Of a stretch of DNA of 36,705 bases, positions 5,917 through 28,670 are shown in pieces. Origin of the DNA: an uncultured Bacteroidota bacterium (GTDB lineage: Bacteria > Bacteroidota > Bacteroidia > Chitinophagales > Chitinophagaceae). Each line of letters begins with the position of its first letter. Positions within the stretch are counted from its first letter, which is position 1. Under the pieces are notes generated by a model. The model had not been told where the DNA came from and did no database searches. It was given only the letters and a program-made list of their open reading frames with translations. Made by a program: the position numbers and the translations under genes. The stretch lies in assembly GCA_903926605.1 (NCBI GenBank), contig CAIYJV010000290.1:1-36705 (forward strand), written 5' to 3'.

Positions 5917-6242
5917 TTCCTAAATTTAGAAAAAATCTCTAAAACTATTATTTTATATTCAGGACGCTGTTGCCCAAAAAAGGATTGACTGGGAATTTCA
6001 ATGTATTACATCGGTTAGCCGATCTTTTGGTTTTCCCTCCAGAACGACCTTCCAAACCGTGTTTCATTAACTTCGGGTTGGAAAAATTAGGAGCTTTTGA
6101 CAATTGAATTATTGTAAATAATATACAATATTTTATTTTGTGCTATTTGAAAAAAAATTGTAAGTTTACTTGTAATTGTAATTTATTGAGTTTGCTAACA
6201 GGAGCGTACCTGGCAAGTATAGCACCAGACAAAAATTTACTT
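5917..6242. other. Intergenic region between divergent genes
   Basis: This is a 326-bp A/T-rich gap between the divergent acyl-CoA synthetase gene (minus) and the first giant surface-protein gene (plus). It contains a promoter-like pair at 6137-6168 for the plus-strand gene. I see no convincing promoter for the minus strand. The 35 in-frame codons upstream of ATG 6243, beginning at a TTG at 6138, overlap the promoter-like sequence and precede a good signal peptide, so I treat them as untranslated. Confidence 0.6.
6137..6168 (+). promoter_or_regulatory. Putative Bacteroidota sigma-A type promoter for the first giant surface-protein gene
   Basis: TTTG (6137-6140) is separated by 20 nt from TAAGTTTA (6161-6168), which is one mismatch from the TAnnTTTG -7 consensus. 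It lies about 75 nt upstream of the preferred ATG at 6243. Spacing fits the class; the -7 mismatch lowers confidence. Confidence 0.45.
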
Positions 6243-9200
6243 ATGAATAAGCTTTATTTTGCTTTGTCAGTAGTAGTGTTATGCGCGTTATCGGCAAAAG
6301 GACAAACTACTGTTTCGTTTACCTGCCCTACTACTACCACGACGTGGACGGTACCGGCAGGTGTAACCAGTATTCAGGTAGATGTTCAGGGGGCTAATGG
6401 TGGGTTGAACTCGGTAGAAGGTGTTCCCAGTTTCGGATATACGGTTTTGGACCGAGGCGGGCATGGAGCCCGGGTGCAAGCAACACTGGCGGTTACGCCG
6501 GGTCAGGTTTTGAATATATATGTAGGCGGAATAGGCCCCAATGGTATCACCGGTAGCAATGTGCCCGGAGGATTTAACGGCGGCGGCGGCGGTAAATATG
6601 CGCCGGGCGCAGGCCTTACACCCAATATTTGTGGCGGTGGTGGCGGCGGCGCATCGGACATAAGAATAGGCGGTACCGCGCTTGCTAACAGGGTTGTTGT
6701 TGCTGGTGGTGGTGGTGGTGCTGGAGGCAACTATGTTAATCCATATGTAGATTACGACAGAGGAGGCGACGGAGGTGGAACCACGGGCGAGGCCGGATGG
6801 GCTGGCGGCACTGTTTATGGCGGTGGCGCCGGTGGCGGTGGTACACCCACGGCTGGCGGCGGCGGTGGCGCATCCCTTGGTTTTGGTCTTGGTGCTGGTG
6901 GTGCAGGTACGCTTGGCACTGGCGGCAACGGCGGTAATAACTCGGCTGGCGGCGGCGGCGGCGGCGGATACTACGGTGGCGGCGGCAGCTGTTACAGTGG
7001 CGGAGGTGGCGGCTCGTCATACACCGACGCGGTACTGGCTACATCCGTAACTCATACACGTGGCTACAACACAGGCTGTGGTGTAGTCACTATTATAGTT
7101 CCAGGTTGTTCGGGTACGCCCACTACAGGCACAGTTTCCGCATCGGTCACATCCGGATGCGGCCCTTATACATCTGTACTCAATTTAACTGGTGCATCCG
7201 GCGGCGCGGGGATTACCTATCAATGGCAATCTTCGCCCGATGGGTTGACCTGGACCAATATCACAGGCGGCACTACATTGCCCTATACCGTCACAGTGAG
7301 TACCACTACCTATTACAGATGCGTAGTGACTTGTACCACATCAGGAATTTCTACGAACAGTGCGGCAATAGAATGTTTCGAATACCCTGTACCGGCGGCG
7401 ATCACAGGTCCTGGTACGGTGTGTACCGGCCTCACTATCACCCTTGCAGACGTAACGACCGGCGGTACCTGGAGCAGTTCTGCTTCAGGAACTGCATCCG
7501 TTGTTTCCGGAACCGGCGTGGTTACCGGTGTGGCGGCACTGGGCGGCACAGCAACCATTACTTATACCACCACCGGTGGGTGTACGGCAACCACGGTTGT
7601 CACCGTCAATACTAATCCACCCCTTATTTCCGGAAGTTTGACCGTATGTACCGGCAATACCACCACGCTCACCGACCTCACAACCGGCGGTAGCTGGACA
7701 AGTTTATCAGGTGGCATAGCTACTATAAACAGCGCTGGTGTGGTTTTTGGACTTAGTGTGGGCACGTCGGTTATTTCTTATACGCTTGGCTCCGGTTGTG
7801 CAACCGCTTCTACAGTCACTGTATATGCGACACCTGCATCTATCACCGGACCCGGCAATGTGTGTACGGGTGCAAATATTACGCTCGCAGACGTGACTCC
7901 CGGCGGCACCTGGACTAGCTCATTTCCGGGAATCGGGGGAGTAGGTTCTACCACGGGTATAGTTACGGGCGCAGGCACAGGTACTACCACGATTAGTTAT
8001 ACCACTGCTGGCGGCTGTTTTGCCACTGCGCCGGTTACAGTGAACCTCACTCCTTTACCCATATCGGGTTCTGCGTCGGTATGTCTGGGTTACAATGTAA
8101 CACTTACAGACGCCACCGCCGGTGGCAGCTGGAGTAGCACTGTGCCTCTGGTTGCTCCGATCGGCGCCGGGACTGGAATTCTTACCGGCAATACCCTGGG
8201 TACCACAACTATTTCTTATGTAATGCCCACCGGTTGCTACCAGACATACGCGGAGACCGTGAATGCGCTGCCTGGCCCGATTTCGGGAACCCCATATGTG
8301 TGCAAACTTTCTACTACTACACTCACCGATGCAGGCGGAGGCACATGGAGTAGCAGCAATGGCAGTATATCTACTGCCGGTGCGGCCACCGGTGCCATTT
8401 ACGGTGTTTCGGCGGGAACAGATACCATAACTTATACGATAGGGTCGGGGTGTTTTGTAACCCAGTCATTTACGGTGAATCCGCTTCCGGCGGCCATCTC
8501 AGGCAATGTGCCGTTTTGTGTGAACGCCACGGTTACGCTTGCAGATGCCACATCCGGCGGATCCTGGGCAATAGGTGGAACACAGGCTACTATCTCATCT
8601 ACTACAGGTGTGGCATCAGGAGTGTCTAACGGTAATCCCACAGTGACCTATACCGCTCCGGTAACAGGTTGTCAGCAAACAGCTGTGCTCACTGTGAACC
8701 CGGTTCCCGGAGCCATAGCCGGTATTTTGCTGTTGTGCGATTCGTCAACAAGCATATTGCTGAATGGGTTGACTGGCGGTGTCTGGACCAGCTCCAATAC
8801 CAGTGTGGCAACCATCAATCCCGGCACAGGCGCTGTTTTCGGCGTAAGTCCGGGACTGGACACTATAACATATACCATAGCACTTACAGGTTGTAAAACA
8901 ACTTCTACCCTTACTGTACAGCCACCGCCTGCGCCGATCGGCGGGCCAACTGCATTGTGCGTCGGGTCTAATATCACATTGAGTGACCTTATCACAGGTG
9001 GATTCTGGACCAGTGGTACAATGGCCAACGCCACAATAGATTCGTTCAGTGGCCAGGTTTCCGGGGTTAATGCCGGTACCGCTCTTATTTCTTATACGCT
9101 CGGGGTCTGTGCTACGTCGGAATTAATAACGATAAATGCAGTACCTGCTCCTATTGGCGGTCTCAATTCTGTTTGTACCGGAGGTGGCATTACCACCCTT

Positions 9201-10955
9201 AGCGAATCCACACCGGGTGGGAGCTGGTACAGTGGCAGCCCTGGTGTTGCATCTGTAAACATTTCAACGGGAGTATTAACTGGCTTTTCGTTGGGCACGG
9301 CTTTGATTTCGTATGTATTACCGGGAACCGGATGTTTGACCACCGAACTGATCACGGTGGATCCACTGCCGATGCCGATTACCGGTGTTGATTCTGTATG
9401 TGTAGGGTATACCGTGCTTTTGTCCGATCCATTAACCGGAGGTACATTCTCCAGCGGGTCCGGTTCCATAGCTTCTGTAAACAGCACTACCGGTATGGTG
9501 ACCGGAGTATCGGGCGGTAACACTTACATAAGCTACACCCTGGGTGGAACTGGCTGCTCCATTGCTGTTCCTTTCCATGTCAATCCGATTCTTTCGGTGA
9601 GCAGTACGTTGGCTGCTTATCCCGGCGACACGATCTGTGCGGGCAATCCAGAAACCTTTACAGCGACCACCACCAACGGCGGTACTGCGCCTGTATACCA
9701 ATGGTTGGTGAATGGCTCGCTCGTGCCGGGTGCTACATCGGGAACATACACTTTTACCCCTTCTAACGGGAATGTGATCAAATGCATCGTGACCAGCAAT
9801 GCTACCTGTGCTATCCCTGCTACAGCAACGAGCAACTCGATCACCATGACCGTGAACCCGGTTACCAATCCTGCGGTCACCATGATTCCCGGTGGCAACG
9901 ACACGATTTGTACGGGAACAACACAGACCTATTCAGTTACCTCTTTATGGGGTGGTACCGCACCGGTCTATTTATGGACCGTGAACTGGATACCTGTAGG
10001 AACGGGGACGACCAGTTTTACCTACACGCCTGCAAACGGCGATATTGTCCGCTGCGGTATGATAAGCAGCAGCCCATGTCCGGTGCCCGATACCGCCTTT
10101 GCCATAGACACGGTGGTAGTGAAAGATTACGCCACACCAATGGTGAGCATCAACAGCATTGGCAGCCTTTCGGCCTGCCAGGGTAATATGGTCACGCTAA
10201 CAGCCAATGCTACCTGGGGTGGCTGGGGGCCGGTTTATAGCTGGACTTTGAACGGAAATGCCGTCCCCGGATCAGGTAATACTTATACCTATATTCCGGC
10301 AGATAGCGACCTGGTTGTGGTAACCATGAGAAGTAATTACCCCTGCGTTGTTCCCACTGATTCTGCTGAAGGGCAGATTCGAATTTCAGTGGATCCGGTT
10401 ATTGTGGTTACAATTACAGACAGCTATGGTGGTTTGGTAACGGAGGGTGCCTATGATACACTGGTGGCGCATGTGCAGAACGGGGGTACTGACCCAACCT
10501 ACCAATGGTACAGAAATGGTGTACCCGTGCCCGGCGCTAACAATTACAAGCTCGCGATGAATGACTTTGTGAACGGTGATTCGGTGAGCGTAATGGTGCG
10601 GACGGGTAGCGGTAGTGCCTGCGAAGGCGTAAGGGGTTACAACTGGATTTTTCTTGAAGTGGCGCCGGCGGGTGTAGGCACCTCCAATACGGGCATAAGT
10701 GATGCCATGTTAATGCCCAACCCTAATGGCGGGTTGTTTACTGTTTCAGGCAGGTTACGTACCGGGACGGGAAGCGTGGCAATATTGGTAACTAATGTTT
10801 TGGGCCAGCAAGTATATAGTGCAGTTGCAAACGTGCGTGGAGGCAGAATAAATGAAATAATAGATTTGGGCCGTGAACTGCCCGCGGGCATATACAATCT
10901 GGTTCTGGTGCCGGAAAACGGGGCCAGAGAAGTGCTTCGGTTTTATAAAAACTAA
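6243..10955 (+). CDS. Giant T9SS-secreted surface protein with ALK-like glycine-rich module and 14 Ig-like repeats
   Basis: This is a 1570-residue secreted protein, probably an adhesin or surface matrix protein. The start at ATG 6243 is chosen because it gives a clean signal peptide (MNKLYFALSVVVLCALSAKG, cleavage near residue 20). Domains in order: a short beta-rich lead; a Gly-rich module at about 95-270 with poly-Gly runs and a GGGGGGASDIRIGG motif like the glycine-rich domain next to ALK-type receptors; one Ig-like domain at about 285-380; ten repeats of about 73 residues (384-1116), each with a VC near its start and a GC near its end; four repeats of about 91 residues (1117-1479); and a T9SS type A sorting domain with PNPNGGLFTVSG and LPAGIYNLVL motifs. 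A paralogue follows directly. A hairpin terminator ends the unit. No enzymatic motif is visible; the adhesin role is inferred. Confidence 0.85.
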   Translation: MNKLYFALSVVVLCALSAKGQTTVSFTCPTTTTTWTVPAGVTSIQVDVQGANGGLNSVEGVPSFGYTVLDRGGHGARVQATLAVTPGQVLNIYVGGIGPNGITGSNVPGGFNGGGGGKYAPGAGLTPNICGGGGGGASDIRIGGTALANRVVVAGGGGGAGGNYVNPYVDYDRGGDGGGTTGEAGWAGGTVYGGGAGGGGTPTAGGGGGASLGFGLGAGGAGTLGTGGNGGNNSAGGGGGGGYYGGGGSCYSGGGGGSSYTDAVLATSVTHTRGYNTGCGVVTIIVPGCSGTPTTGTVSASVTSGCGPYTSVLNLTGASGGAGITYQWQSSPDGLTWTNITGGTTLPYTVTVSTTTYYRCVVTCTTSGISTNSAAIECFEYPVPAAITGPGTVCTGLTITLADVTTGGTWSSSASGTASVVSGTGVVTGVAALGGTATITYTTTGGCTATTVVTVNTNPPLISGSLTVCTGNTTTLTDLTTGGSWTSLSGGIATINSAGVVFGLSVGTSVISYTLGSGCATASTVTVYATPASITGPGNVCTGANITLADVTPGGTWTSSFPGIGGVGSTTGIVTGAGTGTTTISYTTAGGCFATAPVTVNLTPLPISGSASVCLGYNVTLTDATAGGSWSSTVPLVAPIGAGTGILTGNTLGTTTISYVMPTGCYQTYAETVNALPGPISGTPYVCKLSTTTLTDAGGGTWSSSNGSISTAGAATGAIYGVSAGTDTITYTIGSGCFVTQSFTVNPLPAAISGNVPFCVNATVTLADATSGGSWAIGGTQATISSTTGVASGVSNGNPTVTYTAPVTGCQQTAVLTVNPVPGAIAGILLLCDSSTSILLNGLTGGVWTSSNTSVATINPGTGAVFGVSPGLDTITYTIALTGCKTTSTLTVQPPPAPIGGPTALCVGSNITLSDLITGGFWTSGTMANATIDSFSGQVSGVNAGTALISYTLGVCATSELITINAVPAPIGGLNSVCTGGGITTLSESTPGGSWYSGSPGVASVNISTGVLTGFSLGTALISYVLPGTGCLTTELITVDPLPMPITGVDSVCVGYTVLLSDPLTGGTFSSGSGSIASVNSTTGMVTGVSGGNTYISYTLGGTGCSIAVPFHVNPILSVSSTLAAYPGDTICAGNPETFTATTTNGGTAPVYQWLVNGSLVPGATSGTYTFTPSNGNVIKCIVTSNATCAIPATATSNSITMTVNPVTNPAVTMIPGGNDTICTGTTQTYSVTSLWGGTAPVYLWTVNWIPVGTGTTSFTYTPANGDIVRCGMISSSPCPVPDTAFAIDTVVVKDYATPMVSINSIGSLSACQGNMVTLTANATWGGWGPVYSWTLNGNAVPGSGNTYTYIPADSDLVVVTMRSNYPCVVPTDSAEGQIRISVDPVIVVTITDSYGGLVTEGAYDTLVAHVQNGGTDPTYQWYRNGVPVPGANNYKLAMNDFVNGDSVSVMVRTGSGSACEGVRGYNWIFLEVAPAGVGTSNTGISDAMLMPNPNGGLFTVSGRLRTGTGSVAILVTNVLGQQVYSAVANVRGGRINEIIDLGRELPAGIYNLVLVPENGAREVLRFYKN
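7392..9590 (+). repeat. Ten tandem Ig-like (BIG2-like) repeats of about 73 residues, first giant protein
   Basis: Ten degenerate units read P-x-x-I-x-G-x-x-x-V-C, then a TL-x-D, GG-x-W-x-S, TG-x-V-x-G, TI-x-YT and GC pattern, ending in a VNP-type linker. Total 733 codons. Each unit has one Cys near its start and one near its end, about 50 residues apart, suggesting one disulfide or paired site per domain. Units are diverged from one another but match the unit of the same rank in the downstream paralogue. Confidence 0.85.
9591..10679 (+). repeat. Four tandem Ig-like repeats of about 91 residues, first giant protein
   Basis: Four longer units share a D-TIC-x-G start, GG-x-x-PVYxW-x-VNG core, YTPANGD-type strand and SNxxC segment. 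The block is 363 codons, exactly the length of the matching block in the paralogue (13936-15024). It immediately precedes the T9SS sorting domain. Confidence 0.82.
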
Positions 10956-11136: not shown

Positions 11137-11262
11137 TAAATTGCACATGAACGGAATATTTTTTTGTGTGACTTTTTTTGGATGGGTTGAGCAACCGGCC
11201 CTTTCCTTGTGCTTTTACGTTGGCAACTGAAAATGTATTCTCCAGCTCAAAAACGAATTACT

Positions 11263-14200
11263 ATGAAGAAACTATACTTTTTTTGCTTCCTGTTTTGTTT
11301 GTTGGGATTTTCCAACAGGAGTTTCGGGTTTACCACCTATTATTACCCGACCAGCGCGACCGTAACCGGCGGCGGCACTTCGGTGTGTCAGGGCGGACCA
11401 GCTAGTCCGCTCACCTGCACGGTTCCCACTTCAGGATATTCTGTTTTTTTGGGCGGAGGTGGACCCAGCGTACTTGTCACCTACACCTGGTATTATAACA
11501 CCACCGGCAGTGTGGTTTCCGGTACGCCGGTGCCAGGATATGTGGGTCTGACTTATACAGCGGGCGCTGCAGCGCAGATACTCACACTGCCGTCGGCAGC
11601 GATCAGTACGGCTACGATAGGCACATTTTACTATTACGTGATACTTACGGGAACCAATACCGCTGACGGTTCATTTAGCCCAATCAATATCACATCTAAT
11701 ACCCAGACGATCACGGTAACAGCACCTACGTCATCCATTTTAGGACCCAGTACTTTGTGTAGTGGATCGACCATCACTTTGACAGATAGTTCGCCCGGCG
11801 GAACCTGGAGCAGCAGCGCACCTGGTGTGGCCACGGTCACCACTGGTGGTGTGGTCACCGGCGTGGGTGCGGGTGGTACGGCCACCATAACCTATGCTGG
11901 TAGCGGTGGTTGCAATGCGACCAAAGCCATAACCGTAAATCCGCTGCCTGCAACAATTTCGGGTACACCGGTGCTTTGCGCGGGTACCACGACCACGCTT
12001 ACAGACCTCACGGGTGCTGGTACATGGACGAGCAGCAACCCATTGATAGCGACCGTTGGCAGTAGCTCGGGCGTGGTTTCGGGGTTGGCCGGCGGCACGA
12101 CGACAATCGTATTTTCCCTTACGTCAACCGGTTGCAGCACCTCTGAGGTGGTTACAGTAAATCCGGCGGCAGCGCCCATAACGGGCACACAAACAGTTTG
12201 CGTAGGTCAGAATACTACATTGGCAGATTTGACCACCGGGGGTGCGTGGTCCAGCTCGGCACCGGGAATTGCTTCGGTGACCGGAGGAGTAGTAACCGGA
12301 GTTTCTGCCGGAACCGCTACCATATCCTACGCCCTTGGTACAGGTTGCTCAGCCACCGTGGTGGTAACGGTCAACGCATTGCCCCCGGCCATTACAGGTT
12401 CGGCTACAGTTTGCCATACATACACAACTACCCTTGCAGACGGGGGAGGAGCGGGTACATGGACCAGCAGTAACCCGGGCATAGCTCCCGTTGGTGCGAC
12501 CACGGGAGTTGTTACCGGTTCCGGTCTGGGTAGCGCCACCATTACCTATGCGCTCGCGGCTACGGGATGCTACACGACCTACAATGAAACGGTAAATCCA
12601 CTGCCATCTCCCATACAGGGACCAGCATCGCTTTGTGCGAATGCCTCTGTTACGCTTTCGGACACCACACTGGGTGGCACATGGGTTAGCGGCACCCCCG
12701 GTTCGGCGGCCGTAGGCCCTACAGGTATTGTTTCGGGTGTTGCGGCGGGTTCCACTACAATTACTTACACCCTGGGCACCGGCTGTTTTGTGACACAAAC
12801 CGAGACTGTTCTTCCATTTCCCGCGCCTATTACGGGAGATAGTATGGTATGTTCCGGTTCGGCAGTTACCGAGTCCGACATCACCGCTGGAAGCACCTGG
12901 AGTCTGACAGGTACAGGAGCTACCATAGGCACAACAACCGGTATCATCACTGCCACATTATCCGGTGCCACACCTGTAGTAGATACCGTACGCTACACCA
13001 TTACAGCCACCGGATGCCGTGTAAGCAGACCGGTGACCGTAAATCCGCTACCGTCCGCCATTGCGGGCATTCGTGTGATTTGCGATTCATCTACCACCAA
13101 CTTGTTCAATACCTTGCCGGGCGGAATCTGGACCAGCAGCACTCCAGCAATAGCAACTATTAATAGTGTAACGGGTGTGGCCTTTGGTTGGGCTCCCGGC
13201 ATAGACAATATTACGTACACGATACCCACTACGGGTTGTGTGGCGACGACAACGCTTACTGTTGCGCCGCCTCCTGCGCCAATAAGCGGTTTACAAACGG
13301 TTTGCCCCATGCTCACCACCACGCTGAGCGATGGTATTTCCAGTGGCACCTGGATCAGTGGCTCCCCTTCGGTAGCCACAATAGGCGCTTCGACAGGTAT
13401 TATTACAGGTATAATGGCTGGTACCACGGTGATCACCTACGAACTGGGCGTATGCAGCACGACAGAAGTTGTTACCGTAAATCCGTTGCCTGCGGTTATT
13501 GGCGGTCCTAACTTCGTCTGCACGGGCGGCGCCACCATTACGCTTACCGATGCCACTCCGGCCGGTTCCTGGTCCAGCACCAATCCTTCTATTGCGCCCA
13601 TCAATTCCGTATCGGGGGTGCTTACAGGTATGGGTACGGGCACCGCAACCATTACTTACCAGCTTATTGCTACAGGATGCTACCAGACTGAGAACATAAC
13701 GATCGAGCCATTGCCTGGTGCTATAACTGGCCCGGATTCTGTATGTCTTGGCGGTTCGGTGACATTGGCCGATCCCGCGTCTGGTGGTAGTTTCAGTTCG
13801 GGAACTCCTTCTATCGCAGGTGTTTCGGCGTCCTCAGGCGTCGTTACTGGCGCGTCTGTAGGCGCTACCCAGATCACCTATACACTTAGCGGAACCGGAT
13901 GCCAGATATCCATGCCGTTCCACGTAAACCCCATCCTGCCCGTGAGCAATATGCTTACGAATTCGCTAGGCGATACGATCTGCGCGGGTAACACGGAGAT
14001 GTTTACCTCACTGTCTGTAAACGGCGGTACGGCACCTGTTTACCAATGGGTTGTCAATGGCGCTGTTATTACCGGTGCCACCAGTGCTTCGTATAGCTAC
14101 AACCCCGGAAACGGAGACGTGATAAAGTGCATTCTTACCAGCAATGCCACCTGTGCGCAACCGGCTACTGTAACCAGTAACGCCATTACCATGGTGGTAA

Positions 14201-15300
14201 ATCCTGTTACCAATCCCACGGTTACTATGTCGCCCGGAAACCACGACACAATATGCGTGGGTACGTCTACCACATTTAATGTAGTTACCACATCGGGTGG
14301 CTCCTCACCCGTTTATTTATGGAGTGTAAACTGGATGCCGGTTGGGGCAGGTACTACAAGCTATTCTTACACTCCGGCAAACGGAGATATTGTTCGTTGC
14401 GGCATGATTAGCAGCAGTCCATGTCCTGTACCCGACACTGCATTTGCAATAGATACAATGATAGTGGAGCCTTACCAGACACCCCTGGTGAGCATAGACG
14501 GTGCGAGCGGACTGGCAGCCTGTCAGGGTAATTTCGTGACTCTTACGGCCAATCGGGTATGGGGTGGTTGGGGCCCTGTTTATAACTGGACTGTGAACGG
14601 TCTGCCTGTAACAGCAACCGGAAACACCTATTCCTATATGCCGGGTAACAACGATGTAGTTGCCGTTACCATGAACAGCAATTACCCTTGTACCGTTCCC
14701 TCTGCCTCTGCCAGTTCACAGACCACCATCACTGTGAACCCGGTGATCACGGTAACTATCACAGACGTTGACGGAGGTTTGGTGACCAGCGGAACATTTG
14801 ATACGCTGATTGCAAATGTTACTAACGGAGGTACGAATCCTATCTATCAGTGGTTTCGCAATGGAACGCCCATACCGGGAGGAAATTATTATAAACTCGC
14901 ACTGAACGACTTTGTAAATACAGACTCGATAAGTTGCGATGTTATTACAAACGGCTCGGCGGCGTGCGATGGCATCCGGGGGCATGCGTGGCTGGTGCTG
15001 CAAGTGGCTCCCGAGCGTGCGGAAAGTATGCACAATGCACCGTATGAACTGGTATTGAAGCCTAATCCCAATGCCGGCTCGTTTTTGATTACCGGCAAAA
15101 TAGCTGACGGGTCGCGCCTGGCGCATATTGAAGTGACCAACATGATGGGACAAAAGGTTTATAATGGCGATACGCCCGTAGTGAACGGAGTATTGAAAGC
15201 GCAACTTCATCTTGACCCCTCACTGCCGTCCGGAATGTATCTGGTGCGTGTAGGTACCGGTAAAAATGCAACGGTTTCGGGCATCAATATCGTGAAGTAA
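11263..15300 (+). CDS. Giant T9SS-secreted surface protein with 14 Ig-like repeats (paralogue of the preceding gene)
   Basis: This is a 1345-residue secreted protein, tandem paralogue of the gene at 6243-10955. The start at ATG 11263 gives a signal peptide (MKKLYFFCFLFCLLGFSNRS). The unique N-terminal module (about 22-156) is Ser/Thr/Tyr-rich and Ig-like and lacks the Gly-rich domain of its neighbour. Ten 73-residue repeats (157-891) and four 91-residue repeats (892-1254) follow in the same order as in the paralogue. The T9SS type A sorting domain at the end has LKPNPNAGSFLITG, VTNMMGQKVY and LPSGMYLVRV. Repeat-by-repeat correspondence indicates whole-gene duplication after the array was built. 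A lipoprotein hydrolase gene begins 36 bp downstream with no terminator hairpin between. An adhesin or matrix role is inferred; no catalytic motif is visible. Confidence 0.85.
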   Translation: MKKLYFFCFLFCLLGFSNRSFGFTTYYYPTSATVTGGGTSVCQGGPASPLTCTVPTSGYSVFLGGGGPSVLVTYTWYYNTTGSVVSGTPVPGYVGLTYTAGAAAQILTLPSAAISTATIGTFYYYVILTGTNTADGSFSPINITSNTQTITVTAPTSSILGPSTLCSGSTITLTDSSPGGTWSSSAPGVATVTTGGVVTGVGAGGTATITYAGSGGCNATKAITVNPLPATISGTPVLCAGTTTTLTDLTGAGTWTSSNPLIATVGSSSGVVSGLAGGTTTIVFSLTSTGCSTSEVVTVNPAAAPITGTQTVCVGQNTTLADLTTGGAWSSSAPGIASVTGGVVTGVSAGTATISYALGTGCSATVVVTVNALPPAITGSATVCHTYTTTLADGGGAGTWTSSNPGIAPVGATTGVVTGSGLGSATITYALAATGCYTTYNETVNPLPSPIQGPASLCANASVTLSDTTLGGTWVSGTPGSAAVGPTGIVSGVAAGSTTITYTLGTGCFVTQTETVLPFPAPITGDSMVCSGSAVTESDITAGSTWSLTGTGATIGTTTGIITATLSGATPVVDTVRYTITATGCRVSRPVTVNPLPSAIAGIRVICDSSTTNLFNTLPGGIWTSSTPAIATINSVTGVAFGWAPGIDNITYTIPTTGCVATTTLTVAPPPAPISGLQTVCPMLTTTLSDGISSGTWISGSPSVATIGASTGIITGIMAGTTVITYELGVCSTTEVVTVNPLPAVIGGPNFVCTGGATITLTDATPAGSWSSTNPSIAPINSVSGVLTGMGTGTATITYQLIATGCYQTENITIEPLPGAITGPDSVCLGGSVTLADPASGGSFSSGTPSIAGVSASSGVVTGASVGATQITYTLSGTGCQISMPFHVNPILPVSNMLTNSLGDTICAGNTEMFTSLSVNGGTAPVYQWVVNGAVITGATSASYSYNPGNGDVIKCILTSNATCAQPATVTSNAITMVVNPVTNPTVTMSPGNHDTICVGTSTTFNVVTTSGGSSPVYLWSVNWMPVGAGTTSYSYTPANGDIVRCGMISSSPCPVPDTAFAIDTMIVEPYQTPLVSIDGASGLAACQGNFVTLTANRVWGGWGPVYNWTVNGLPVTATGNTYSYMPGNNDVVAVTMNSNYPCTVPSASASSQTTITVNPVITVTITDVDGGLVTSGTFDTLIANVTNGGTNPIYQWFRNGTPIPGGNYYKLALNDFVNTDSISCDVITNGSAACDGIRGHAWLVLQVAPERAESMHNAPYELVLKPNPNAGSFLITGKIADGSRLAHIEVTNMMGQKVYNGDTPVVNGVLKAQLHLDPSLPSGMYLVRVGTGKNATVSGINIVK
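11731..13935 (+). repeat. Ten tandem Ig-like repeats of about 73 residues, second giant protein
   Basis: 735 codons in ten units with the same VC...TL-x-D...GTW-x-S...TG-x-V-x-G...ITYT...GC pattern as the upstream paralogue (733 codons). Same-rank units match best: unit 7 of both has the unusual ICDSST or LCDSST variant, and unit 10 of both ends in PFHVNPI. Confidence 0.85.
13936..15024 (+). repeat. Four tandem Ig-like repeats of about 91 residues, second giant protein
   Basis: 363 codons, identical in length to the block at 9591-10679. The second unit contains a 30-residue run identical to the paralogue (bases 14368-14457 here, 10023-10112 there) although 16 of 30 codons differ synonymously. 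Confidence 0.82.
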
Positions 15301-17335: not shown

Positions 17336-18967
17336 ATGAATTTTATTGCCGTCCATCTGGCAAAGTTGTTGAGGGCATTGGGTATGCTTGTCGGCTTGCT
17401 ATGTTTGGTCCTGTACGTGCATGGGCAAAACCGGCTGGGGCAAAGGATAGACTCCATGCGGCTGCTGGTATCGGTTTGCAGGACGGATACGGAACGCATA
17501 AAGCTGCAGTGCGATATCACCAAACTTTATCCGGCCTATGATCCCAACAAAGGATTGGAGCTGGCCCGAAAGTCGCTGGCCGAGTCGCGAAACATAGGGT
17601 GGGATCGCGGTGTTGTCTTATCTTATATCGGTATGGGGCTTAACCAGCAAAGCAGGGCAGACTATGCCAGCGCCATCAGGGAGTTCGATTCCGGGGCGGT
17701 CATCAGTGCCGAGTTGGGTAACAGATTATGGTGCGGCATCTGCGCCAAATACAGCGGTGAGTCTTATTATGATGAGAACAATTATGCCGAGGCATTGCGT
17801 TGTTTTTTTGATGCTCTGCAAGCCGATGAAGAAGTGCACAATACAAAAGAAACATTTGTGGTACTGGAATTCATAGGACGTGTATACGAAGCGCAAAAAA
17901 ATTACGAAAAAGCACTGCAGTACTACAAAATCTCCTACGACTCGGCACTAAGGTCAGGTGCGGCAAACGCCACTGCAAAGAATCTGGTAAACATAGGGCA
18001 GGTTTATGAGTTGCTGGGCCGGAACGAAGAAGCCCTGAATTGTTTCAGTAAATCGCTTGAAATATTTACCCGACTCAATGATGAAGGAGGCCTGGGCATA
18101 TCGCTCGCCAACATGGCTATAGAATACAGGCACATGCACCGTTACGGCGCAGCGTTGGCGAATGCACGGGCTGCTCTGGAAATCTATGAACGCTACAATG
18201 ATCGGCAGAACATAGGATCAGTATATGAGTCGCTGGGCAATATTTACTTTTCAATAGCAACTAGCCGTTCAGTGGATGCATTACCTGATTCACTGGCCAA
18301 CAGGAATAGAGACATGGATCGTGCGTTCGCCTATTTTTTCAACTCTATAGCCATCTGCCGTGAACTGGCCTACCTTGAAGGTATCTACGTAACATCTGCT
18401 GATGTGTCTCAGGCGTTCGAGGCAAATGGAAACTACAAAGAGGCGTTGAAGTACTACAAGCAATATATCTCCATCAGAGACTCTGTCTTTTCGGCCGAAA
18501 ACAATGTCAAGATTGCCAACCTGGAAATCGCCCGGGAGGTGTCTTTAAAAGACCGTGAGCTAATGATTGAGCGGGTAAAATCTCAGAAGAGGCGAAATGA
18601 AAATTTGTTTTTCGCTTGCGGAATCGTTTTTCTTTTATCGGTGCTCATCATTTTGTATCGTAATTTTGCGTTACAGAAAAGACTTAATGCCAAAATCTCA
18701 GAACTGGTAAGCGAACAGGAGCAAACTATTGCGTTGCGCACTAAGGCCCTGACCGAAGTGAACACAAGATTGTTGCAACTGATACAGTTTAATGTGCACC
18801 AGGTAAGAGAACCAATGACGCGTGTGATGGGTCTGGTAAAGTTGCGCAGAGAAGTTGGTGACGAAGAATTTCTGGAAGTGTGCCTGCCCATGATAGAACA
18901 GTCGGTAAATGATGTCGACAAGACAATGCAGGAGGTGGTCAAAAAAGCTGAAGAGGCAATTAAATAG
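17336..18967 (+). CDS. TPR protein with membrane helix and histidine-kinase dimerisation-like end but no ATPase domain
   Basis: This is a 543-residue protein with an N-terminal signal or anchor segment (about 7-30), at least seven TPR units (about 50-395), a transmembrane helix near 422-440, a coiled coil, and a final helix pair. That helix pair carries QFNVHQVREPMTRVMGL, a DHp-like H box with His488 as candidate phosphoacceptor. The domain layout matches Bacteroidota TPR sensor histidine kinases, where the TPRs are periplasmic and the kinase core cytoplasmic. However, the protein stops about 55 residues after the His and has no N, G1 or G2 boxes. A TAG stop and a new gene start follow within 6 bp, so the ATPase domain is not hidden in another frame. 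The next gene is a lone receiver domain. It may act as a phosphotransfer protein, a phosphatase or a scaffold. Confidence 0.8.
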   Translation: MNFIAVHLAKLLRALGMLVGLLCLVLYVHGQNRLGQRIDSMRLLVSVCRTDTERIKLQCDITKLYPAYDPNKGLELARKSLAESRNIGWDRGVVLSYIGMGLNQQSRADYASAIREFDSGAVISAELGNRLWCGICAKYSGESYYDENNYAEALRCFFDALQADEEVHNTKETFVVLEFIGRVYEAQKNYEKALQYYKISYDSALRSGAANATAKNLVNIGQVYELLGRNEEALNCFSKSLEIFTRLNDEGGLGISLANMAIEYRHMHRYGAALANARAALEIYERYNDRQNIGSVYESLGNIYFSIATSRSVDALPDSLANRNRDMDRAFAYFFNSIAICRELAYLEGIYVTSADVSQAFEANGNYKEALKYYKQYISIRDSVFSAENNVKIANLEIAREVSLKDRELMIERVKSQKRRNENLFFACGIVFLLSVLIILYRNFALQKRLNAKISELVSEQEQTIALRTKALTEVNTRLLQLIQFNVHQVREPMTRVMGLVKLRREVGDEEFLEVCLPMIEQSVNDVDKTMQEVVKKAEEAIK

Positions 18968-18972
18968 TTGGT

Positions 18973-19335
18973 ATGAAACTGATGCTGGTGGACGATGAAA
19001 CGATTTCAAATTACATTTTGAAACGTTTTCTATCGCAGATAGACGAAAAGCTTGAGATAATGGATTTTACAGACCCGTTCGCAGCTTTTGATGCAATAAA
19101 GACTTTTGATCCGTTTTTGATTTTCATGGATCTGAATATGCCCAGATTGTCAGGCCAGGCGTTTCTGGACAAAATGAAAACTGAGCAAGTGCCCAACAAA
19201 GTAGTGGTGATCACTTCCTCAACAAGCGCGTTTGATATTGATCGGATTTCGGGATATCCCAACGTATTGCATTTCCTTTCAAAGCCTGTGAACCGGGATT
19301 TGCTGCGCCAGATTTTGTTTCCTTCCGGGGACTGA
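18973..19335 (+). CDS. Single-domain response regulator (CheY-like receiver)
   Basis: This 120-residue receiver domain has no output domain. The acidic pair is D7-D8, the phosphoacceptor is D53 (IFMDLNMP), T81/S82 is the switch residue (VVITSS) and K104 is the conserved lysine (FLSKPV). It starts 5 bp after the stop of the TPR/DHp gene and is almost certainly translated from the same mRNA, so the two products are likely partners. All residues needed for phosphorylation are present, so the receiver should be active even though its neighbour lacks a kinase ATPase domain. The target is unknown. Confidence 0.9.
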   Translation: MKLMLVDDETISNYILKRFLSQIDEKLEIMDFTDPFAAFDAIKTFDPFLIFMDLNMPRLSGQAFLDKMKTEQVPNKVVVITSSTSAFDIDRISGYPNVLHFLSKPVNRDLLRQILFPSGD

Positions 19336-20483: not shown

Positions 20484-21197
20484 TCAGGTGGCCGGCGCGC
20501 TGTTGTAGCTGAACTTAAAGCCTATGCCGTGTATGGTCTGCAACTTGGCTTCGTTCTGCGACTTCAGGTACTTGCGCACCTTGGTTATAAAGACATCCAT
20601 ACTGCGCCCGAGGAAATAATCATCCTTGCCCCACACGCTCATCAGTATCTCGTCTCTTTTCAGTACCCTGTTGGCGTTCATGCACAGGAAACGAATCAGG
20701 TCGGCTTCGCGTTGGGTAAGCTGGTATTCTATAGTGGTATTGCCAAGTACCAGATTGGAATAGTCGAATTTCAGGTCGCCGATCATAAAGGTAACCGGCC
20801 CTACATGGATGTCTTTTTTGCGGCTGCGTTTCAGGAATACTTGAATCCTGTGCAGCAGTTCCTGCATATTGTACGGTTTGGTGATATAGTCATCTGCACC
20901 ACTTTCAAAACCTGCGATCTTGTCGTCGTCAAGGTTTTTCCCGGTTAGTAAAATGATTGGAATATTCTCGTTTTTCTTCCTGATATTATTGGCCAACTCC
21001 ATGCCATCTTTTTTTCCGGGCAGCATAATGTCTACCAGACACAGATCATAATTGTGCTTCATAAACTGTTGCCAGGCAATGTCGCTGTCTGTGCAGTGGT
21101 TCACTTCATATTCATGTTTCTGAAGAAAATCTTTTACCACATAACCCAAGATAGGGTCGTCTTCTACTAACAATATTTTAGGTTTATCCTGCACCAT
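20484..21197 (-). CDS. OmpR/PhoB-family response regulator (RprY-like), orphan
   Basis: This is a 237-residue DNA-binding response regulator. The receiver domain occupies 7-122 with acidic residues E12-D13-D14, phosphoacceptor D56 (CLVDIMLP), T85 and K107. The winged-helix DNA-binding domain at about 135-232 has LTQREADLIRFL and the recognition region RSMDVFITKVRKYL. The GIGFKF ending is typical. The best overall resemblance is to the Bacteroidota RprY group. No histidine kinase gene is adjacent, so its partner lies elsewhere. It is convergent with purN and 79 bp downstream of ruvC on the same strand, with an A/T-rich gap that could hold a promoter. Confidence 0.9.
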   Translation of the reverse strand: MVQDKPKILLVEDDPILGYVVKDFLQKHEYEVNHCTDSDIAWQQFMKHNYDLCLVDIMLPGKKDGMELANNIRKKNENIPIILLTGKNLDDDKIAGFESGADDYITKPYNMQELLHRIQVFLKRSRKKDIHVGPVTFMIGDLKFDYSNLVLGNTTIEYQLTQREADLIRFLCMNANRVLKRDEILMSVWGKDDYFLGRSMDVFITKVRKYLKSQNEAKLQTIHGIGFKFSYNSAPAT

Positions 21198-27314: not shown

Positions 27315-28670
27315 ATGAAAATCAGAGACAGGTTATCGCTGCAATTCGCCGGTATCTCGGCGATCATTCTTTTTCTGGTGTTGGCCGGTATTTATATTGC
27401 GGTAGAGCGCACCAGGGCCAGTACATTTTATAACCGCCTTAATGACCGCGCACTTACAGTAGCCGAATTGTTCCTGGGAGAGGATAATATGACCAGGGAG
27501 AAATTTACCGAAGTCCAACGTCGTTATCCCATAGAGCTTCCCAACGAGGAAGTACATATATATAATGAAAAGGGAGACCCAGTTTTCATTAATCAGAACA
27601 CTATTCAGTGGCCGGGGCCAATGATAGAGCGGGTGAGAAAAGAGCACAGGCTGCGCATACGACAGCGGGACAAACAGTCGGTAGGATTGTTATATGAAGA
27701 TAATTCGGGTAATTTCGTAGTGCTTATTTCTGCATACGACAAATACGGACACAACTGGGAGCGCCAGTTATTGTGGGCCATGCTGTTCAGTTTTATTATT
27801 TCAACGGTGGTTATGTTCTTTTTGGGTCGTGTGTTTGCGCGTACTGCCCTGTTGCCCATTACAAGGGCTGTTAACGAAGTGAAGGTAATAAGGTCTACCA
27901 GTCTGGATCGCAGGTTGAAGACCCAGGAAAGCAGGGATGAGGTAAATGAGCTGATCGTCACCTTTAACAATTTGTTGGAACACCTCGAGCAGTCGTTCGA
28001 CGCACAGCGGTCGTTCGTGTCTAATGCGTCGCATGAGTTGAGAACACCACTTACTTCTATCATCGGTAATATCGAGGTGACACTCGCATTCGACCGTACC
28101 GCAGCCGACTACAAGCTTACTTTGCAACAGGTATTGGTAGCGACCGGCAAATTGAACGAACTCATTAACAACCTGTTCGAACTTGCCCAGGCAGCTATTG
28201 ACGTAAGCGACTTTGAGGAAGTAAGACTTGACGAGCTAATATGGCAGGTAAAAGATGAATGGATGAATAAAGTACCTGGTTGCCACATAGAACTTGATTT
28301 TAAGTTGGATCCGGACTTCAGGAAGTACACCATAAAAGGGAAAAGCGATTTGCTTTTTATTGCTTTTGGCAATCTGGTGCATAATGCCATCAAATTTTCT
28401 GGAAATAAACCCATTTTTTGTACCATCGAGAGCAAGTCTCACGAAACCGAGATCCGGATTCGCGATCAGGGTATTGGGATACATTCTGAAGAAGCGCACG
28501 AGGTTTTTCTGCCGTTTCGTAGGGGGTCTAACGCCAAGAATTTTGAAGGCTCCGGAATCGGCTTGTCGTTGACCGAAAAAATACTCAGGCTGCAAGGTGG
28601 TCATATCCGTATCAACGATACCCTCCAGTCCGGTACCGAATTTATTATTTCGTTTCCGTCATTGTTGTAG
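27315..28670 (+). CDS. Sensor histidine kinase (CusS-like)
   Basis: This is a 451-residue inner-membrane histidine kinase. Transmembrane helix 1 is at about 10-30, a periplasmic sensor region at about 31-152, transmembrane helix 2 at about 154-171, and a HAMP domain at about 172-225. The dimerisation domain has the H box SNASHELRTPL (His240). The ATPase domain has N357 (NLVHNAIKFS), the G1 box DQGIGI (384-389), an F box (FLPFRRG) and the G2 box GSGIGL (412-417). All catalytic motifs are intact, in contrast to the TPR/DHp protein at 17336. It is the cognate kinase of the preceding regulator. Confidence 0.94.
   Translation: MKIRDRLSLQFAGISAIILFLVLAGIYIAVERTRASTFYNRLNDRALTVAELFLGEDNMTREKFTEVQRRYPIELPNEEVHIYNEKGDPVFINQNTIQWPGPMIERVRKEHRLRIRQRDKQSVGLLYEDNSGNFVVLISAYDKYGHNWERQLLWAMLFSFIISTVVMFFLGRVFARTALLPITRAVNEVKVIRSTSLDRRLKTQESRDEVNELIVTFNNLLEHLEQSFDAQRSFVSNASHELRTPLTSIIGNIEVTLAFDRTAADYKLTLQQVLVATGKLNELINNLFELAQAAIDVSDFEEVRLDELIWQVKDEWMNKVPGCHIELDFKLDPDFRKYTIKGKSDLLFIAFGNLVHNAIKFSGNKPIFCTIESKSHETEIRIRDQGIGIHSEEAHEVFLPFRRGSNAKNFEGSGIGLSLTEKILRLQGGHIRINDTLQSGTEFIISFPSLL

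Follow-up and report, generated by a model that had tools for sequence, protein, structure and literature searches.

Proteins with a HisKA domain and no HATPase domain are known from Archaeoglobi and Methanomicrobia, with phosphoacceptor, phosphotransfer and phosphatase roles proposed for them (PMC5847659), and the class, 'HisKA, no HATPase' or 'possible incomplete histidine kinase', is also found in PMC1183210 and in P2CS; in SMART, 1556 of 42417 HisKA proteins are without HATPase (PMC3591291). A kinase-derived dimeric His protein paired with a lone receiver, which is what we propose here, is known from PhyT-SdrG in Sphingomonas, Spo0B-Spo0F in Bacillus and ChpT in Caulobacter. PhyT is anchored in the membrane and has a periplasmic domain, as the protein studied here probably does, and takes phosphate from the lone receiver SdrG and passes it via a conserved His to PhyR, which it also sequesters (PMC5898713). 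All three keep a degenerate ATPase-like domain, and ChpT is similar to a whole kinase core (PMC3433190). In Rhodobacter, CheA3 is likewise a phospho-acceptor without an ATPase domain of its own that acts on a CheY-like receiver, with an HPt-type P1 domain and a known kinase partner, CheA4 (PMC3591291).

The protein studied here belongs to the 'HisKA, no HATPase' kind, with a sensor, a C-terminal HisKA-like domain, a conserved His and no HATPase domain. Its family differs from the described members in forming a Bacteroidia clade, in having an HxxREP box without an acid at H+1, in its TPR, 7TM and propeller sensors, and in a recurrent, co-inherited lone receiver. We do not file it under Spo0B, ChpT or PhyT, as it lacks their degenerate ATPase-like domain and stops at helix 2 of the DHp; by analogy the module may work like these three. 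It differs from CheA3 in having a HisKA-type domain, and an HPt identity was rejected, as Pfam, searched up to E 1, gave no match to Hpt. The same gene order is seen in the 'histidine kinase + lone receiver' pairs of Bacteroidota, examples of which in the same genome are C215, C377, C172 and C396; they share the receiver type and a related DHp, but differ in carrying an ATPase domain and, as a rule, Asp at H+1. A literature search, mostly of papers outside subscription, found no paper on the Bacteroidia clade, the receiver pairing or the residue signature, which is weak evidence of novelty; these three are what we consider new, and the kind was already known.

The window is the whole stretch of DNA that was analysed, 36,705 nucleotides from an uncultured member of the Chitinophagaceae, and the features of the sensor and receiver genes are collected in the table. 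The window also holds two very long tandem paralogues (6138-10955 and 11209-15300), which contain numerous Ig-like repeats and have a sorting-type domain at the C-terminus.

Features of the sensor and receiver genes, in positions of the window
Feature	Position	Strand	Basis
TPR sensor with C-terminal DHp-like hairpin and without ATPase domain, 543 aa	17336..18967	+	ORF, Pfam, AF2
Signal peptide or signal anchor, about residues 1-31	17336..17428	+	sequence reading; AF2 helix 2-30
TPR sensor region, about residues 34-384	17435..18487	+	Pfam TPR_12, E 6e-30; AF2 helical repeats
Single TM helix, about residues 424-445, strongly hydrophobic	18605..18670	+	sequence reading; inside AF2 helix 387-505
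Signalling coil and DHp helix 1, residues 446-505	18671..18850	+	alignment, AF2
Codon of candidate phospho-acceptor His488, H box HQVREP	18797..18799	+	invariant in 30/30 aligned proteins
DHp helix 2, residues 509-542, final element of the protein	18860..18961	+	AF2
Lone receiver, 120 aa, likely partner; D7, D8, D53, T81, K104	18973..19335	+	full Response_reg domain, E 6e-16; alignment; tree

The signal peptide or anchor would place the TPRs in the periplasm. His488 lies within FNVHQVREPMTRVMGL, and the 55 residues that remain after it hold no N, G1 or G2 box; Pfam found no HATPase domain in the protein. AlphaFold2 (AF2) predicted the last 108 residues as a two-helix hairpin (pLDDT 89) with a short turn 20 residues past the His, and for the whole protein an unbroken helix that leads from the TPRs across the membrane into the DHp and is then followed by helix 2. 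By these models the protein has a full DHp hairpin and nothing beyond it. The coil of some kinase-less relatives carries a 7-residue insertion (alignment columns 30-36), as expected for one coiled-coil heptad.

HisKA matches the window copy alone at residues 487-529 with an E of 0.0045 or 0.075, which does not reach the Pfam threshold, and it matches 22 of 25 homologous C-termini, at best with 5e-6. A profile-profile comparison (hhalign) of the kinase-less hairpins with the DHps of full-length kinases gave a probability of 98.9 and an E of 1e-17, and in the PDB the profile of homologous C-termini picked out DHps of histidine kinases, with 3a0r as the best match (E 3e-4). Foldseek found no match for the hairpin model in the PDB, a result that is uninformative for a bare helical hairpin, and the assignment of the DHp fold rests therefore on the sequence profiles and the AF2 secondary structure. 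Apart from His488, R491, P493, G499 and D528 are invariant in all 30 whole proteins aligned.

A search for related loci with the whole TPR protein gave nothing, and matches came from a narrower alignment. The last 98 residues were searched against 396 genomes of the family, and the alignment against 299 from the order and 345 from the class; overall the searches covered about 1,100 genomes of Bacteroidia. After removal of duplicates there were 67 distinct kinase-less proteins, ending 51-80 residues past the same His, and 32 full kinases in the same loci, extending 156-228 residues past it; as the loci were gathered by a profile of kinase-less DHps, the two counts are not an unbiased census. 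Two of the TPR proteins with the same end (L103 and L014) are outside the window's family. PAS proteins with the box HVVRAP had been taken for ordinary kinases and also end at the DHp, so that this reading was rejected.

The tree of DHps included 51 kinase-less rows, and 49 of them fall in one branch (support 95/94); there are further supported branches for the window's own family of 31 rows (96/97) and for the window together with G116, G396, G349 and G287, the four relatives closest to it (99/94). The tree is built on few columns, and requires 2 changes against 25.8 with shuffled labels. Since the kinase-less rows cluster, the loss of the ATPase domain is old. The stripped-down sensor, with its receiver, is thus a real and old signalling module and no broken gene, and it descends most likely from an ordinary Bacteroidota pair of histidine kinase and lone receiver after loss of the ATPase domain. 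The initial annotation had described a TPR/TM protein that ends about 55 residues after His488 without an ATPase domain and is followed 5 bp later by a complete receiver, and the two ORFs and their Pfam matches agree. It had also argued against a frameshift remnant, and a recent truncation, frameshift or local deletion is rejected here, as homologues in many genomes stop at the same place; no close homologue keeps an ATPase domain, His488 has not varied, and orthologues with the same end and a linked receiver, which it had suggested looking for, do exist.

The receiver gene in the window has the acidic pair, the phospho-Asp, the Thr and the Lys of a single-domain response regulator and no output domain, and these five residues are invariant across the eight paired receivers that were aligned. 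A receiver is found directly downstream in three of the window's four closest relatives, and all four GAF-type proteins L094 and L096-L098 have one as well. In two genomes (L094:3970-4539 and L096:3870-4448) a carboxymuconolactone-decarboxylase/AhpD-like gene lies directly upstream of such a GAF-DHp and receiver pair. In two TPR pairs, both from close relatives of the window, sensor and receiver gene share an ATGA overlap, a hint of translational coupling. Altogether, the neighbouring gene on the same strand codes for a lone receiver in 16 of the 67 kinase-less cases and does not in 51, and 17 of the 32 full kinases in the sample have such a neighbour; in the window's own genome several lone receivers lie 15 to 138 bp behind a full kinase. 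To judge by the gene order, the kinase-less pair looks like an ordinary kinase-plus-receiver pair minus the ATPase. The receiver tree follows the DHp types, and the DHp and receiver distances of 16 pairs are correlated (Mantel r 0.87), with none of 10,000 permutations as high. Linkage and mirrored trees are signs of joint inheritance, as distinct from contact or phosphotransfer, and they show that sensor and receiver have been co-inherited. The window pair lies among other genes than the pairs of its relatives do, and the conserved unit is thus the pair itself.

A degraded and non-functional former histidine kinase is what the missing ATPase domain might suggest, but 67 distinct proteins from several families share this end, with frames open throughout, an invariant His, a conserved helix 2 and an origin at the level of a clade, and this is hardly what decay would leave; we regard this reading as refuted for the family and give it practically no weight. 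The residues around the His bear on the readings in which the protein is functional. In the HisKA kinases that have been tested (CrdS, HK853, HK4262 and HK1190), kinase activity, but not phosphatase activity, depends on an acidic residue directly after the His, and phosphatase activity depends on Thr or Asn at H+4 (PMC3510030). The window protein has Gln489 and Glu492 at these two positions. The acid at H+1 is found in 1 of 33 proteins of the strict family and in 10 of all 67 kinase-less proteins, against 25 of the 32 full kinases (Fisher 1e-9), and among the kinase-less relatives the position varies freely between N, Q, S, Y, R and H. Such a pattern would be expected if the autokinase reaction had been abandoned while the His was still in use. 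It is unfavourable to a split kinase, where His488 would be phosphorylated in trans by a full kinase as heterodimer partner or by a free-standing ATPase in the manner of CheA4 and CheA3, because the acid required for the kinase reaction is lost in 32 of the 33. EnvZ is functional with HisKA and HATPase separated, CheA3/CheA4 is a natural split kinase (PMC3591291), and the window genome has 52 HATPase matches that could supply a partner, but the kinase-less DHp has diverged from those of full kinases and the collected loci are without an ATPase gene, except for full kinases in two of them. We hold a split kinase to be quite unlikely. A split ATPase gene nearby was rejected as a candidate: there is none in the collected loci, and the kinase at 27315-28670 of the window is an ordinary histidine kinase with an HELRTP box and an OmpR-type regulator of its own.

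The DHp could instead bind the phosphorylated receiver and drain it, as a phosphatase or phosphate sink that resets, under control of the TPRs, a pathway fed by a kinase in trans. HisKA domains of full kinases can dephosphorylate receivers even with the kinase reaction disabled (PMC3510030), and this activity has been proposed for the archaeal proteins without HATPase (PMC5847659). The Thr or Asn required at H+4 is replaced by Glu in 33 of 33 strict family members and is absent from all 67 kinase-less proteins; as it is missing from the 32 full kinases too, its absence is not specific to the kinase-less group, and the argument against a phosphatase is weakened. A pure phosphatase, on the other hand, would not in every case need an invariant His. 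A phosphatase is in our view unlikely, and is the weakest of the options in the initial annotation. The interpretation given there is supported in part: its more general idea, that the protein may handle phosphoryl groups for another kinase, stands as the best reading. Pseudokinases that regulate other kinases are known, and would be a precedent for a scaffold that sequesters receiver or kinase by binding alone, with His488 as a structural residue. So would PhyT in its sequestration of PhyR (PMC5898713). A mere scaffold would hardly keep His488 invariant next to a freely varying neighbour, or every phosphorylation residue in the receivers, and we find it rather improbable.

With this residue pattern and a partner that can be phosphorylated, a role in phosphotransfer is the best reading. 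We thus favour a two-gene, sensor-gated His-Asp relay module working like PhyT or Spo0B with a kinase in trans as the best explanation, and would put its probability at about one half. The bare DHp hairpin would be the output of the TPR/TM sensor and would dimerise into a four-helix bundle that presents His488. Without an ATPase the sensor could not generate phosphate itself, and His488 and the linked lone receiver would exchange a phosphoryl group; a signal-driven movement of the coil would open or close phosphotransfer between this receiver and another two-component protein, in a direction that the model leaves free, with the kinase and the final output regulator encoded elsewhere in the genome. 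The relay builds on what is observed, that is the architecture, the conservation, the pairing, the lack of an ATPase and the loss of the kinase-specific acid. Against it speak the 51 homologues without a neighbouring receiver gene, the degenerate ATPase-like domain that Spo0B, ChpT and PhyT retain and the window family does not have, and that sequestration would give similar linkage and mirrored trees. About 1.1 kb from the pair there is an orphan OmpR-family regulator (20484-21197, reverse strand) without a neighbouring kinase, a possible end regulator by position only.

The initial annotation spoke of a TPR-gated module; gating by TPRs is not its essence, as sensors of the GAF, PAS, 7TM and propeller types are joined to the same module. 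Kinase-less DHps carry TPR heads in the window and in L073-L076, GAF heads in L077, L094 and L096-L098, multi-TM heads in L083, L085 and L090-L093, a 7TM head plus an extracytoplasmic N-terminal domain in L095, and further a beta-propeller (L139), receiver-PAS (L105), PAS (L106, L110) or receiver (L112) head; the heads other than TPR were assigned by reading the sequences and not by family scans of each protein. The beta-propeller sensors of L139:1043-4288 and L079 are like those of hybrid kinases, and the kinase-less DHp is all that comes after them. Kinase-less DHp TPR/TM proteins adjoin TPR/TM proteins of the class III adenylate/guanylate cyclase type in L086:4010-7443, L087:4014-7362 and L002:106-2019, and the closest TPR paralogue in the window genome (C298) is itself a TPR/TM protein that ends in a class III cyclase domain; the TPR/TM input seems to have been swapped between outputs, DHp and cyclase. 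The same genome has a second kinase-less DHp protein of 588 aa (G000:C282:4377-6143, also L212:378-2144), with receiver-like and PAS domains, an HKVRSP hairpin and the end ...VVEKTEILGQE, and no HATPase match on its contig. Contig L145, labelled as a Gammaproteobacteria MAG, codes for a DHp protein that hardly differs from the one in Flavipsychrobacter (L144), probably a case of binning contamination in the public record.

It is tempting, though doubtful as yet, to see in Bacteroidia a whole sensor layer, in which TPR, GAF, PAS, 7TM and propeller heads share one kinase-less DHp output with partner receivers, depend on a single kinase in trans or on a few for their phosphate, and integrate the signal by controlling phosphotransfer and not autophosphorylation. 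Proteins of this design are easily mistaken for histidine kinases or dismissed as fragments. A design that is clade-wide, with swappable sensors, a signature against autokinase activity and a likely partner gene adjacent, makes the long-noted 'HisKA, no HATPase' class testable with two small proteins. If the relay is true, the sensor counts and the wiring of the two-component networks of Bacteroidota would need revising.
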